Shown here piece after piece: positions 45,797 through 51,596 of a stretch of 64,000 nt of DNA (its first letter is position 1; every line of letters begins with the position of its first letter). Both the position numbers and the translations under genes were made by a program. The DNA lies in NCBI GenBank assembly GCA_030272585.1, contig BSYQ01000003.1, forward strand, positions 5,456,001 to 5,520,000. The letters are read 5' to 3'. The notes beneath the pieces were generated by a model that saw nothing but the letters and a program-made list of their open reading frames with translations, did no database searches and was not told the origin of the DNA. The stretch comes from Bryopsis sp. KO-2023 (taxonomy: Eukaryota; Chlorophyta; Ulvophyceae; Bryopsidales; Bryopsidaceae).

Positions 45797-46039
45797 TGTG
45801 CAACCATTCGAGAATCACTTCGAAGAAATCATATTACAAGTCTTACTGTTTCCCTTGTCCTCTTTAAACCCTAAGACAAGTAGTGCCTGAAACAGTACTG
45901 CCCTTAATTCACTTGCTTCTTACAGGGAACTTCCTTCTTCCCTGTACAAGTGCTGACTAACCCCAAACAGAAATGGACCAACAGCCCATTTAACTCAAAG
46001 AACCTCCACACAGCCCATTTATCTCAAAGAAACTCCACA
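45797..46039 (-). repeat. 3' LTR
   Basis: 243 bp. In element sense it starts TGTGGAGTTTC and ends GGTTGCACA. It follows the pol stop directly; a weak purine stretch (GTGGAAGCG) precedes it as a candidate polypurine tract. Confidence 0.95.
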
Positions 46040-46056
46040 CGCTTCCACTGCTTAAC

Positions 46057-48957
46057 TCATAACGCATAAGAACGAAATAACCCTTGATGCACTACCCGAA
46101 TATCTCGACTATCCACACGAACTTTCCAAACATGTTGTGAACAGCGCTGTACTATTTGACATGGCCCCAACCAGCGCGGGTGCAATTTGGTGCGACCAGT
46201 ATCTACCGATTTTTGATCATACAACCAAACGAACTGTCCCACAGCCCATTGACGATCATCATTCTGGCGAGTTTGATTCACCTTCTCTCGAACTGCAGCC
46301 ATCCGTTGTCGAGAGAGCATCCACGCCTCGGATCCCCCATGAAATACCTCCATCGGGGTAGCTTGCAGCAACGAATGTGGCGTGTCATTGTAATAAGTAA
46401 TGACACGATCCAACAAAAGCCACCAGTCCGTTTCTGGTTCGTCAGACGCCATTTTTCGCAACTTCTGGAGCAGGGACGAATTAGCACGTTCAACCATCCC
46501 GTTGGTGCGATGCAAATATGGAATTGCGAACGACCAGCGAGATCCTCGTTCCTTCATCCACTGCCGCATGTACTGTGACTTGAATGCACTGGCGTTATCA
46601 CTGACGAATTCCGATACTCGGCCAAAACGTTTCTCCCAACTGCGAATCCCTTCCATCACAGCGAAACCATCCACTCGATAAAACCAATCAGCCCATAGCA
46701 CACGCGACACAAGGTCAACCATAACCAATATGTGTCGGCGTTTCCCATCGGTGCACATGATGGGGCCGATAAAATCAAGTGCCACAGTCTCTGACGGACG
46801 CACTGGATCTCGAAATACTCCATATCGATATTGTCGAGGGGGAGGGAAAAACTGTTGGCACGGAACACAGCGATTAATGCACTCTTGAATCGCAGACTTG
46901 GAAAACATATACCCCGCCTTTTTTGCTCGTCCCCACGTTCCATTGACTCCAGGGTGTCCTCCATGGATTTCAGCCCAAATCTTTGGAGTAATCACGGGTG
47001 GGGCGACGTCTTCGCGCGATTTTATCGCTGAACAACCATCTGATAGCAACATTCCTCGACGTGACAAAAAGTCAGGAAAGAGATTAGTCTTTCCTGGTAA
47101 ATAGCGGAGCCGTGGGCAATATTCCATCACTTCATGTAACCTCCTTTTAACGAACCCTGAGCAGTTTGCCGGATTCGAAAAACTGGCGGTGCTTGCGTTG
47201 TCAGTGTAGATAACAACATCGCCTGCGAATATCCATGGGCGGAACGCTCGAATCACTTTCACGAGTGCTTCTGCTTCGAGATCATTGCTCTTGAAGTGTT
47301 TCCATTGCGCAGACCATGTACCAGAGATGCATGACACGATCTTTTCGCGCTGCACCAATATCCCACCCCATCCATGCTCGCTCGCGTCAACGGCGATACT
47401 GAATTGCGTATCTGTGGACGCTGGCATCAATCGCACCATGTGTCGTTCCAGCCCTCGTAAAAATTCCGTCCACTGAGAAGTATCGCCTGTCACTTCCATT
47501 TTTCGAAGCAAGGTCATCAGCAAATCCCCTCGAAACGTAAAACGAATCACCTGCAACAACCATCCTCGTAAGCGACGCCAATCGCTGCGTGATGCTGGCG
47601 GCGCCAAACTGCGCAGGTCGTCAAGCGTTCCTTCTGTAGGCGACCATCCCTCCCGAGTCAATCGATAACCAAGAAACTCCGCCCCTGGTCGAAAAAACGA
47701 ACACTTGGATGCTCGCATGCGCCAGGAGTCTTCGTTAAACGCTGCCAGAGTGATTCTGACGTCTTCCAAATGTGTGACCGGATCCGAGGAAAGGACGAGG
47801 ATGTCGTCCATGTACGCCAGGATCTGGCATGTCGGGGAGGCGCGGGAGCGCGCTTTGTTGAGCGTGGGGGTGACGGCGCGAAGGAACTCCGCAGGTGAGT
47901 TGGAATAGCCTTGGGGGAGGCGCTGGTAAACATAGAAGCGATTTCGGAGAACGAATCCGAAATGAGGTTGGATGGTCGGGTGGATTTTCACCTGATGGAA
48001 CGCATCCCTCAAATCCAATGTTGATCCCACATTGAACTTCCGTACTTCGGCGAAAAGGTGGTCTCGGTTCACTCTAGTAAAGCTCTGGAGCTTGGCACAG
48101 GAGTTTAGGGCTCTGAAGTCCACGACAGTCCGAGCTCCACCATCTTTTTTTGGAACTGCGAACACAGGGCTGCAGAAGGGCTCTTGGGTAACTTCGCGGA
48201 CGACGCCATCCTCGATCAAGGATTGGAGCTCCTTGAAAATCGCGTTTTCCTCAGCGGGTCCAGAGAGAGGCGATTTTTGGATCGACTTGAACGGAATCGG
48301 ACAGCGAGCTGGAAACGCTTGGGTCTGATAGGTCGAACATCCTGGAAACGACGGTCCAAAAAGCGCCGGGAATTCATGGGCGAATTGCTGTCCCCATGTC
48401 TGTAGGGTCTGCTGACGAATTCTGGGTCGATCTCGAAATGCTTGAGGCTTGTCTGGCAGAGGTATCCAACCATGATCCGGAAGGTAAACATGATCCCAGT
48501 TAGTTTTCAGAGAAAAACAAATCATCCTGTAAGTGAAAACCTTTGGCTGATCTCCCTTATTAGTGAGTACTCCCCATAACTGTGTTCCAGAAAACTTAAC
48601 TGCAAATTCAGTCTGAGTAATCTGCAGCCCATCTAAAACATCACCAAAACTAGCATCATCAATGGTGATACCCAATCTAAGGGATTTGGATTCACCAGGA
48701 CCTAAAACAAAAGAACGATTCAAAGGAAAATACACCCGGTTATTGCGTCTATAAGGTAGAAAAAAAGGGATTTCTGCAAATCTAATCCCCTGCTGACTAG
48801 CATCCACTAAGTCAGGCCTGACCTCAGTTTTTTTATCCAGTTCTGATATCCCTTTTTTATTACTGGACTGTAATGTGTCAGCCACCCTTATTTTTGCCTG
48901 ATTTGTCCCATTCTTATTCACTATTGTTTTATTTGTTTTTTTATTTTTTCCTAATCG
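46057..48957 (-). CDS. pol: pol of the Ty3/gypsy element (RT, RNase H, integrase)
   Basis: The frame is intact over about 960 codons and is entered by minus-one frameshifting at 48957. Reverse transcriptase: VVDFRALN, STLDLRDAFHQVKI, LPQGYSNSPAEF and the catalytic YMDD near 47803-47814. RNase H: AVDASEHGWGG, EAEALVKVI and YTDNAS. Integrase: a zinc-binding region (HGGHPGVNGT ... CVPCQQF), the DDE residues in ALDFIGPI, FVSDNASAF and MVERANSSL, and a C-terminal LHPRWLGPCQIV that fits the GPY/F module. No internal stop or frameshift was found, so pol itself may still be functional. The N-terminal part before RT is not assigned. Confidence 0.93.
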   Translation of the reverse strand, partial: RLGKNKKTNKTIVNKNGTNQAKIRVADTLQSSNKKGISELDKKTEVRPDLVDASQQGIRFAEIPFFLPYRRNNRVYFPLNRSFVLGPGESKSLRLGITIDDASFGDVLDGLQITQTEFAVKFSGTQLWGVLTNKGDQPKVFTYRMICFSLKTNWDHVYLPDHGWIPLPDKPQAFRDRPRIRQQTLQTWGQQFAHEFPALFGPSFPGCSTYQTQAFPARCPIPFKSIQKSPLSGPAEENAIFKELQSLIEDGVVREVTQEPFCSPVFAVPKKDGGARTVVDFRALNSCAKLQSFTRVNRDHLFAEVRKFNVGSTLDLRDAFHQVKIHPTIQPHFGFVLRNRFYVYQRLPQGYSNSPAEFLRAVTPTLNKARSRASPTCQILAYMDDILVLSSDPVTHLEDVRITLAAFNEDSWRMRASKCSFFRPGAEFLGYRLTREGWSPTEGTLDDLRSLAPPASRSDWRRLRGWLLQVIRFTFRGDLLMTLLRKMEVTGDTSQWTEFLRGLERHMVRLMPASTDTQFSIAVDASEHGWGGILVQREKIVSCISGTWSAQWKHFKSNDLEAEALVKVIRAFRPWIFAGDVVIYTDNASTASFSNPANCSGFVKRRLHEVMEYCPRLRYLPGKTNLFPDFLSRRGMLLSDGCSAIKSREDVAPPVITPKIWAEIHGGHPGVNGTWGRAKKAGYMFSKSAIQECINRCVPCQQFFPPPRQYRYGVFRDPVRPSETVALDFIGPIMCTDGKRRHILVMVDLVSRVLWADWFYRVDGFAVMEGIRSWEKRFGRVSEFVSDNASAFKSQYMRQWMKERGSRWSFAIPYLHRTNGMVERANSSLLQKLRKMASDEPETDWWLLLDRVITYYNDTPHSLLQATPMEVFHGGSEAWMLSRQRMAAVREKVNQTRQNDDRQWAVGQFVWLYDQKSVDTGRTKLHPRWLGPCQIVQRCSQHVWKVRVDSRDIRVVHQGLFRSYAL

Positions 48958-48963
48958 TTTTTT
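48957..48963 (-). promoter_or_regulatory. minus-one frameshift slippery heptamer A AAA AAC
   Basis: In the gag-pro frame the codons are GAA AAA AAC GAT TAG, so the heptamer is in the exact register for slippage. Reading on from C48957 in the minus-one frame gives 12 open codons into the pol frame. The stop TAG is only one codon beyond the site. Confidence 0.85.
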
Positions 48964-49925
48964 TCAACGGTTGCTTTGATGGAATGCAGCAACTCTTCGA
49001 CCCTTCTGAGCAGGGTTCGAATTCCAACAGGAAAATCAGGGATCTCATGCATGTAACATTCTAACAACCGACCGCTATTGCGAACAAAGAGTTGCTTCTG
49101 CTGGCAATCCACTAATAACCCGTGATGGGCCAAAAAAGGAAAACCCAATATTAATGGAGGCCCCTTGGAATTCATAACAAAAGCAGTGATTTTGATTGGT
49201 TTCTTATTCAAGAACAGCTCCAGTTCTACACTCCCTAACAACTCAGTTCTATGACCATCACCCAAAATCACATGCCTTGAACACTTTTCCACCTTCTCTT
49301 GTAATTTGAGCTTTTTAATCGTTTGAAACTGAATGAAATTGTTAGTAGCTCCAGTATCAATCAAACCACTGATTCGGACATCATTGATGCGAATCGGTAA
49401 GTGTAAACTCGGCTTGGTCGTCCGACTGTGCGCCGCAGTACACCTTTCTTCAGGTATCTCCAGATTCAAACAAATATCTTCCGCTGCGTCATAGAAAACA
49501 TCGTCGTCGTCGATTACTCGTCGCTCAGTCCGTCCTAGTCCAAGAAACATCGGTAGCGCTTGATCATCAGACGAGGTGGGTGAGTCTGCCTGGTCGAAAG
49601 TATCTTGAGCGCCTGTGAGTAGTGGCGCGGATGACTCAGCCTCCAGCGCTTCCGCGTATTCGTCGTCCACACACTGACTCCAGCGAACAGTTTTTTTCGG
49701 TGGAACTCGACCTCGTTGGCTGCCATTCCCCTTGAGATATCGCTCTGCCTCAGTGCGAAAAGAAGCCTCCTTCATCAACACTTTCCACGCTATCATTAGC
49801 GAGTTTTTTCCTGTGACTTGGGAGAAGTCGATTCGACCTCCTGGGACCACCTTGTCGCGCATGCCACCGAGATACTCCCCTCTCATCTGCCCAAGGTCCA
49901 TAGCATCGCCGGGGGTGGTCGTAGT

Positions 49926-50391
49926 CAGAGATAGGACTTTCCGGTTACGGTACCGTAAACCGTACCGTAACCCCACTCCGGTCACTTACGGTTACGGTAG
50001 TTACGGTCCGGACCGGAGTGGTTTTCGTGCTCGGAACCGGACCACCGTACCACTCCGTACTACTCCGGTACCGGACCGTACCGACCGTAACCACCGTACC
50101 AACCGTAAACCGTAAATAGTAACCCCCGCAAGGTCCCGAGAACCCAAAGGAACCCAAGGGGATTCGAACCCACGACCTTACAGACTACAGCCTAACGCTT
50201 TAGCACTGAACCACACTACTTCACGATGATTTAGGGGCTACCGTAGCTATACCGTACCTGTTCCGTACCGTAAAAACAACATATTACTCCGGTTACGGTA
50301 CGGAGTTACGGCCGTAATACGGAACCGTAAACCGACCGTAACCGGACCGGACCGTAGCCGGACCAAAAATTTGGCCCAAGTCCTATCTCTG
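49926..50391. mobile_element. hAT-like non-autonomous element, 466 bp, inserted in gag-pro
   Basis: Perfect 14-bp inverted repeats (CAGAGATAGGACTT) bound the element. A perfect 8-bp duplication, GTCGTAGT, flanks it (49918-49925 and 50392-50399). The interior is dense in short CCGTA/CGGTAC repeats in both orientations, like transposase-binding subterminal repeats, and could form strong secondary structure. It carries a tRNA-like region. CAGAG-type ends plus 8-bp duplications are typical of hAT elements. Confidence 0.93.
50150..50225 (-). other. tRNA-like segment with Pol III A and B boxes
   Basis: On the minus strand a B box GGTTCGAATCC (50160-50170) follows an A-box-like TGGTTCAGTGC (50203-50213) at tRNA-like spacing. 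A loop reading CTGTAGT resembles a tRNA-Tyr anticodon loop, but the stems pair poorly, so this looks like a degenerate tRNA-derived sequence rather than a working tRNA gene. Confidence 0.55.
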
Positions 50392-51002
50392 GTCGTAGTG
50401 GGGTGCTTCCCCAGAGTTCCCATTCCCTGCCAGTACGCCCACTTGGAGATAGAAGTCGTCATGTCGTTCAAGGTGCAGTCAGAAGCCAGCTGAGAAAGCG
50501 CGCCTTGCAAGGGTTTAGGTAGCTTAGCGAAAAGGAGTCTTTTTTTATCTGACTCGCTTACTGATTCACTTAGCTCGCACTCCAGAATATATCGCTCCAA
50601 AAACTGCTGCAGCGACTCTTCTCGCCGAGGTGTTACTTTTGTCAAACGGTCTGCATCGTTTTCAGCGGTGTTAGGAACGCGAGCTTCCATAAGCGCTTGA
50701 AATAACTGCCACTGTAGCTGATTCCGAACTTCGTCAGGGTCGCCTTCGAGTACCAACGCTCCATCCGGTAAGAGGGGGGCGTACTGCGCCATGGTCGCAG
50801 GAGTATTCGCCGCCAAACACTTTCGATATGTCTGTATCGCCAACAACGCTGCAGGACTTCCAGGTTTCATTAGTCGAACGAATTCTTGTGCTTTTGCGAT
50901 AAACGAATCTTCACCTGCCATGAGTTCGGCGTGGGTTGTAGCCCAGCGAGACACCTCACGAGTCCAAACCGTTATTTTCCTTTTGTCCCCAGTTTCCGAA
51001 GT

Positions 51003-51029
51003 CGGCCCTGGGTTGCTTTCCACGCAACC
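51003..51029 (-). other. 2A-like ribosome-skipping motif in Gag
   Basis: The nine codons read GCVESNPGP, matching the core D/G-x-V/I-E-x-N-P-G-P of 2A-like sequences. A leucine-rich stretch (LLILLLLMI) precedes it directly. In known cases translation separates between the final Gly and Pro. Confidence 0.85.
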
Positions 51030-51248
51030 GATCATAAGCAAAAGGAGTATCAACAACCGGGAGAGCGTAGTCCTTGGCTTGACAAGTGCTGGTCCAGAGT
51101 CTGGCTCTGAGTGTCGCCATATTGCGCGTCTCTCCTTCGCTCGTAAGTATGTTTCTCGAGTAAGTGTGATTCCAGCTTGGTGTGGAGAGGAGAGATAAAA
51201 CCACAGTAAAAGTTCGAGCCACCAGAGATGGAAGAGGTGGCGACAAGG

Positions 51249-51266
51249 AGCCGGGCTCCGAAACCA
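51249..51266 (-). other. primer binding site of the retrotransposon
   Basis: Immediately after the 5' LTR, in element sense, the sequence is TGGTTTCGGAGCCCGGCT. The TGG fits pairing with the CCA end of a tRNA. I could not assign the tRNA. The segment also lies inside the gag reading frame. Confidence 0.6.
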
Positions 51267-51510
51267 TGTGAAAACCATTCGAGAATCACTTCGAAGAAAT
51301 CATATTACAAGTCTTACTGTTTCCCTTGTCCTCTTTAAACCCTAAGACAAGTAGTGCCTGAAACAGTACTGCCCTTAATTCACTTGCTTCTTACAGGGAA
51401 CTTCCTTCTTCCCTGTACAAGTGCTGACTAACCCCAAACAGAAATGGACCAACAGCCCATTTAACTCAAAGAACCTCCACACAGCCCATTTATCTCAAAG
51501 AAACTCCACA
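51267..51510 (-). repeat. 5' LTR
   Basis: 244 bp, matching the 3' LTR except for one substitution and one inserted A near its end (GGTTTTCACA). The adjacent host duplication GCCAC lies at 51511-51515. Confidence 0.95.
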
Positions 51511-51596
51511 GCCACCAACTCTTGGGGGACCAGAAAATTTTTTACGGGGGCCAGGCCCCCTCAGGCCCCCCTCCTGGTTGCGCCTATGTGTATGAA

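Follow-up and report, generated by a model that had tools for sequence, protein, structure and literature searches.

The 64,000-nucleotide stretch of the Bryopsis sp. KO-2023 genome analysed here (the window) contains a retrotransposon whose Gag frame carries the peptide GCVESNPGP near its N-terminus, and the question raised by this locus is whether that peptide acts as a 2A (StopGo) sequence. The preliminary description of the locus had placed the motif between 51003 and 51278, and it lies exactly there, on the minus strand, in a leader-Gag frame that opens MVFTWF and continues through SRLLILLLLMIGCVESNPG to a proline (M1 to P92, 51278-51003), of which GCVESNPGP forms residues 84-92 (51029-51003). 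The two hydrophobic stretches that were also pointed out appear within M1-P92 as Kyte-Doolittle 15-mer peaks at residues 15 (1.43) and 72 (2.57). A plus-strand reading of 51003-51278 is ruled out by three stops. With a probability of roughly 0.8, the features described below point to a functional 2A/StopGo segment that would separate a leader of 82-186 residues from Gag in this element and its relatives.

The window element is a young Ty3-type LTR element, encoded on the minus strand, with a 5' LTR (TG...CACA, 51267-51510) and a 3' LTR (45797-46039) that are identical over 238 nt (51273-51510 versus 45802-46039) and are flanked on both sides by the 5-bp target duplication GTGGC (at 51511-51515 outside the 5' LTR). 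The 3' LTR of this copy ends in GCACA (45797-45801) and its 5' LTR in TTCACA (51267-51272); in three further copies the 3' LTR terminates in TTTTCACA. A tRNA primer binding site (TGGTTTCGGAGC, 51255-51266) follows the 5' LTR directly, and the end of a polypurine tract (GGAAGCG, 46040-46046) stands before the 3' LTR. Pfam domains of RT, RNase H and integrase occur in pol (46060-48963), and the frame with the remainder of gag and an aspartic protease is found at 48951-49917, the protease domain being shown on the homologous frame of another copy (L006). The order protease-RT-RNase H-integrase, read by Pfam from the window pol and, for the protease, from the frames of L006 and of families B and C described below, thus identifies a Ty3-type (Metaviridae) element, and the initial assignment to Ty3/gypsy agrees with the LTRs, the primer binding site, the polypurine tract, this domain order and the capsid fold. 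The pol frame lies at -1, and an A AAA AAC heptamer (48957-48963) is located in the gag-pro/pol overlap, as it is in families B and C. In the window copy, a transposon-like insert of 466 bp (49926-50391) splits the gag gene; it has 14-bp terminal inverted repeats (CAGAGATAGGACTT) and an 8-bp target duplication (GTCGTAGT) and is presumably a hAT-like non-autonomous element. Its translated end sequence, VTGVGLRYGLRYRNRKVLSL, also appears in a frame of the family F pol region (L088), which shows that inserts of this family recur in the genome. No Rfam match was obtained within the window at gathering thresholds. PsaB encoded on plastid contig C28 scores highest against chain 6igz_B (1672 bits, against 1548 for the next chain); 6IGZ is the photosystem I of Bryopsis corticulans, which points to a Bryopsis as the probable host.

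The in-frame ATG of the leader-Gag frame (51276-51278) lies in the U5 part of the LTR; a second ATG follows 11 nt further on, at the LTR/primer binding site junction. The leader of 91 residues (51006-51278) comprises a hydrophobic segment at about residues 15-30, a basic KERRxIW segment at residues 48-54 and then the leucine-rich 2A/StopGo-like segment (SRLLILLLLMIGCVESNPG plus proline, residues 73-92, 51003-51062), with a predicted break between G91 and P92. The capsid part of Gag extends from P92 up to the insert (50392-51005). An AlphaFold model built from six sequences (mean pLDDT 51.7 overall, better in the capsid part; an earlier model from two sequences was poor, with a mean pLDDT of 50.1) matches the C-terminal domains of capsid proteins at Gag residues 203-287 and the Ty3 capsid at residues 101-286 by structural alignment. 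On this model, Gag has a fold of the retroviral capsid type, which would start soon after the predicted break.

Comparison with other elements of the genome indicates how widely this arrangement is distributed. The leader region (276 bp) occurs four times, three of the occurrences (that of the window included) being identical and one 94% identical, and of the 78 candidates from a search of the genome with the Gag protein, 56 matched at E <= 0.001. Those matches whose N-termini were examined were sorted by them into families A to H, four of which carry a candidate 2A: family A, that of the window element (N-terminus SRLLILLLLMIGCVESNPGP, core CVESNPGP); family B (42% identity in the search match, N-terminus SRALLLLLLQMGCVEVNPGP, core CVEVNPGP); family C (about 30% over the full match, N-terminus SRALLLTLLQIGGVEQHPGP, core GVEQHPGP), the most abundant of the 2A-bearing families; and family E1, a single copy (N-terminus SRRLLRILLCVGNIERNPGP, core NIERNPGP). 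Families F and G have an N-terminal leader without a 2A, and Gag of these families apparently functions with its leader uncut or cut in some other way. Families D and H have no leader; D starts with MVSELGKTKFSTWTREV, so its Gag begins where a post-2A product would. All eight families share the 12-nt primer binding site. Translation in families B, C and D starts at an ATG whose A closes the LTR and whose TG belongs to the primer binding site (L044 780; L045 1222; L046 1240), and thus the tRNA primer site encodes MVSE; families E1, F and G, with unmapped LTR ends, have the same context of ATG and primer binding site. Family G (L071 1251-2300; L070) has a long repetitive insert with repeats of the SGFSNVAEGF type at the place of the 2A.

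Relatives outside the genome were sought in three protein searches, the queries being A, B and C together, nine Gags, and residues 1-330 of C. The first returned one protein, P0001, which begins within the MVSE/leader stretch (MYARW) and may therefore have an incomplete N-terminus. The second returned 16 proteins, the last four being only distant or matching outside Gag; among the 15 examined (all except P0008), P0002, P0003, P0004, P0005 and P0010 have MVSE directly before Gag, with neither leader nor 2A, P0003 having ten extra residues ahead of MVSE. The third returned P0017 (45% identity), with GGVEQNPGP, and P0018 (24 members), with GGVEPNPGP after a 186-residue leader that opens MVSERG. 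The MVSE start of P0002-P0005, P0010 and P0018 is known at the protein level only. The putative 2A of P0017 and P0018 is at the same place as that of A, B, C and E1: in all six 2A families, 7-12 residues separate PGP from the tryptophan that opens the W(S/T)R(E/D) motif of Gag. P0017 (GVEQNPGP) may represent an earlier state of the family C core (GVEQHPGP). P0018 is a Gag-protease relative that has an arginine-rich leader and, close to its C-terminus, a dUTPase domain. No relative was confirmed among the viral contigs and prokaryotic genome contigs scanned.

A chance origin of the motif is ruled out by a genome-wide scan for codon patterns of (V/I)Ex(N/H)PGP, which found 39 sites (35 + 4), versus one (1 + 0) for a reversed-pattern control. 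Judged by motif and location, 29 of these sites are equivalent positions in the leaders of four Gag families (four in A, five in B, 19 in C and one in E1). The other ten are five copies of one VEGHPGP repeat and five singles; all eight of those examined are in short or unrelated frames, and none resembles a 2A of the Gag-leader kind.

Conservation of the segment is stronger than that of its surroundings. The 20-column window of the 2A ranks first of 432 windows over the six families (0.593; mean 0.199, sd 0.137; the best window elsewhere, in the capsid, scores 0.473) and first again over the four families of the genome (0.642; mean 0.239, sd 0.100). Gag identity between families drops to 17-18%; A and E1 have 17% identity in Gag, yet their 2A segments agree at 11 of 20 positions. 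The motif is therefore kept across families while leader and Gag diverge, as would be expected from the 2A reading of the preliminary description. That reading had also been made to depend on other copies retaining the NPGP core, which is intact in five of the six families. Family C has HPGP, which would look like a refutation, but H at p16 is a natural variant more than 95% active in reticulocyte lysate (PMC12846837), and in family C the H is held by selection.

Selection was examined in family C with 17 of its 19 copies (15 haplotypes, 126 codons), one copy having no fetched locus and L031 being excluded for want of a start codon. The 2A codons (66-85) have nine columns of synonymous variation and none of amino-acid variation out of 20, and the eight columns of the core octamer include five that are variable synonymously and none that are variable in amino acid; taken alone, the contrast of 9:0 in the 2A with 44:21 gives Fisher p = 0.053. 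The pN/pS ratio is 0.11 for codons 1-50, 0.27 for codons 51-65 and 0.12 for the 41 Gag codons 86-126; purifying selection thus acts on the protein sequence of the leader, and more strictly on the 2A. Such figures bear on two other accounts of the conservation. The first attributes it to RNA, in the form of a packaging or dimerisation signal between the LTR and gag, the peptide being incidental: since coding starts at the LTR/primer binding site junction, any RNA signals have to share the leader sequence, and pS is low (0.07) in codons 51-65, just before the 2A. In the 2A itself, however, pS is 0.23, the same value as in leader codons 1-50 and close to the 0.28 of Gag, with the amino acids fixed, which tells against RNA-level conservation of the 2A codons, and the codons for VE-x-(N/H)-PGP differ among families; this is the least credible of the accounts considered here. 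The second takes the segment to be an ancestral 2A in decay and out of use, of which the HPGP of family C and the 2A-less families F and G could be signs. The family C element L045 is young, however, with LTRs identical over a 286-nt repeat, the H is fixed through a synonymous CAC/CAT change, and NPGP is intact in the other families, so that decay is very improbable.

The available text of PMC12846837 gives an expanded StopGo core of (D/G/C/N)(V/I)ExNPGP, with G as prevalent as D at p12, and lists natural variants (C, N or V at p12, G at p13, H at p14 and H at p16) that were more than 95% active in reticulocyte lysate, although H at p16 showed no more than modest activity when placed in a foreign context. 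The six cores (CVESNPGP, CVEVNPGP, GVEQHPGP and NIERNPGP in the genome; GVEQNPGP and GVEPNPGP in P0017 and P0018) match the expanded core in five families, and family C matches by way of H at p16. The view that C at p12 or H at p16 is disabling was rejected, these being among the active variants reported in that part of PMC12846837. According to the same text, replacing residues typical of the upstream motifs left hardly any activity in nearly every case tested, and 28% of the sequences in that study were left unclassified by upstream motif. The upstream hexamers here (LLLMIG, LLLQMG, TLLQIG, ILLCVG, ILLLIG and QLLLIG, compared by eye and without a motif score) are leucine-rich and have G at p11, as do motifs 2 and 6 of PMC12846837 in the text available, but carry I, M or V at p10 in place of the A, S or C of those motifs; motifs 2 and 6 are paired there with D at p12, which is found in none of the six families. 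The upstream stretch thus appears to fit known StopGo motifs only in part.

This partial fit is one of several observations that could instead be accommodated by a two-pass leader, in which the segment would be a second membrane segment or a protease or signal-peptidase site and a fusion Gag would be cut by enzymes. Families A and C have two hydrophobic segments in a hydropathy scan, the leaders of F and G do without a 2A, and a signal-peptidase site is predicted in the sea-urchin 2A signal, as given in the available part of PMC4981915. Conservation nevertheless runs through the non-hydrophobic core G-x-(V/I)-E-x-(N/H)-PGP, which membrane insertion would not need, the changes at p12, p15 and p16 are those that StopGo tolerates, and the core octamer of family C varies only synonymously. 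Enzymatic cutting of a fusion Gag is for these reasons considered unlikely. The StopGo reading draws on conservation and selection at the protein level, on the position of the segment, on its core match and on the leaderless relatives that start at the start of the predicted product.

If StopGo operates here, the leucine-rich stretch and the (C/G/N)(V/I)Ex(N/H)PG core would act in the ribosome exit tunnel to leave the Gly-Pro bond unformed, and the leader would be let go as a separate small protein. The same ribosome would continue to make Gag (or Gag-protease) starting with proline just before the capsid domain, and a -1 frameshift would then yield Gag-protease-pol. The skipping, its efficiency and the frameshift are all inferred.

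The plan of the leader in A, B, C, F, G, P0017 and P0018 is an N-terminal conserved W among large hydrophobic residues, a basic segment resembling (K/R)xRRx(I/V/L/F)W (a variant of it in B) and a variable linker; the leader of E1 keeps the first segment, has a weak basic segment and is less similar overall. In a hydropathy scan of A, B, C, E1, F and G, the first segment exceeds 1.3 in A, C, E1 and G and is below this value in B and F. The distance from the W to the break is 65 residues in A, 62 in B, 65 in C, 63 in E1, 79 in P0017 (of which the start is unsure) and 145 in P0018; a constant spacing between hydrophobic segment and break, suggested by the 62-65 residues of four families, was dropped in view of P0017 and P0018. 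The ribosome tunnel hides about 35-40 residues of the nascent chain, and with at least 62 residues from W to break, the first segment could be outside the tunnel before the break. The leader may target membranes, and its role would most likely be to bring some of the Gag, or the RNA under translation, into contact with a membrane. The suggestions in the preliminary description of a signal-like leader, and of Gag reaching a membrane when skipping fails, would draw on this hydropathy scan and on the Roulston 2016 precedent.

A precedent is Ty1 Gag, which is translated with SRP at the ER and proposed to nucleate assembly sites there (PMC3945221, in the part available). The ER co-translational route of Ty1 Gag serves as a model for the leader role, and no 2A is mentioned in that part of PMC3945221. 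Together with the distance from W to break, the Ty1 precedent suggests docking of translating RNA and release of Gag, which we offer tentatively and regard as rather doubtful in its full form: the hydrophobic segment, encoded near the primer binding site, would leave the ribosome at least 62 residues ahead of the 2A and recruit SRP, bringing the translating genomic RNA to the ER, where StopGo would leave the leader at the membrane. Capsid-bearing Gag would then be made free on the cytosolic side, beside its own RNA, so that assembly would be nucleated there and Gag spared passage through the ER. Recoding would thereby solve here a problem for which retrotranslocation is the proposed solution in Ty1.

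Among retroelements, 2A sequences reportedly occur in APE-type and trypanosome non-LTR retrotransposons (Odon 2013; Heras 2006), which are alike the present families in encoding a 2A and differ from them as non-LTR elements with no LTR capsid gene. Among retrotransposons with a 2A, the available part of the review PMC5972666 names only non-LTR elements, and in the literature on 2A in retroelements and LTR Gags, judged from titles and abstract openings among the matches listed (Rao 2025, Cell Rep 44, 115822 not being covered), no LTR Gag with a 2A was found. The likeness to the 2A/StopGo of RNA viruses consists in the core octamer, the leucine-rich hexamer with G at p11 and the allowed variants at p12 and p16 (PMC12846837, as far as its available text extends); the differences are the location in an LTR Gag, the I, M or V at p10 and the absence of D at p12. 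The sea-urchin SpNLR2A, as presented in the available part of PMC4981915, is similarly N-terminal and hydrophobic with a 2A core, and its full-length form enters the secretory route when recoding fails; its 26-residue signal is itself the 2A, whereas in the present families a separate W-bearing segment lies 62-145 residues before the break, and the downstream protein is Gag-protease, not an NLR. In PMC12846837, no evidence was found that plant viruses make natural use of StopGo, and its use in cells is described as rare. If the StopGo reading is correct, the range of this form of recoding would come to include green algae and the LTR-retrotransposon capsid gene, and two recoding events, StopGo and a -1 frameshift, would occur in one retrotransposon message. 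The families constitute a natural test set, with leader and 2A, leader without 2A, or no leader, and with a fixed HPGP variant beside a GVEQNPGP relative; what selection favours in an N-terminal 2A, and how Gag comes to stay on or off membranes, can thus be tested directly.

The 2A label is not monophyletic in either the RT or the Gag trees. In the RT trees, F and G group with C (95/98 and 96/96), the leaderless P0005 is near the A/B and C/F/G groups, and E1, H and D are long branches; the Gag tree has A with B (98/98), C with E1 (83/91) and F with G (99/98). The 2A has likely been lost in F and G, and the combination of leader and 2A may have been gained once and then lost, gained twice or exchanged, any of which fits the trees. 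Families E1 and H (L087, L090) have Gags related to those of the group but very divergent RTs (17-28% identity to the rest), which may reflect old divergence or gag-pol exchange.
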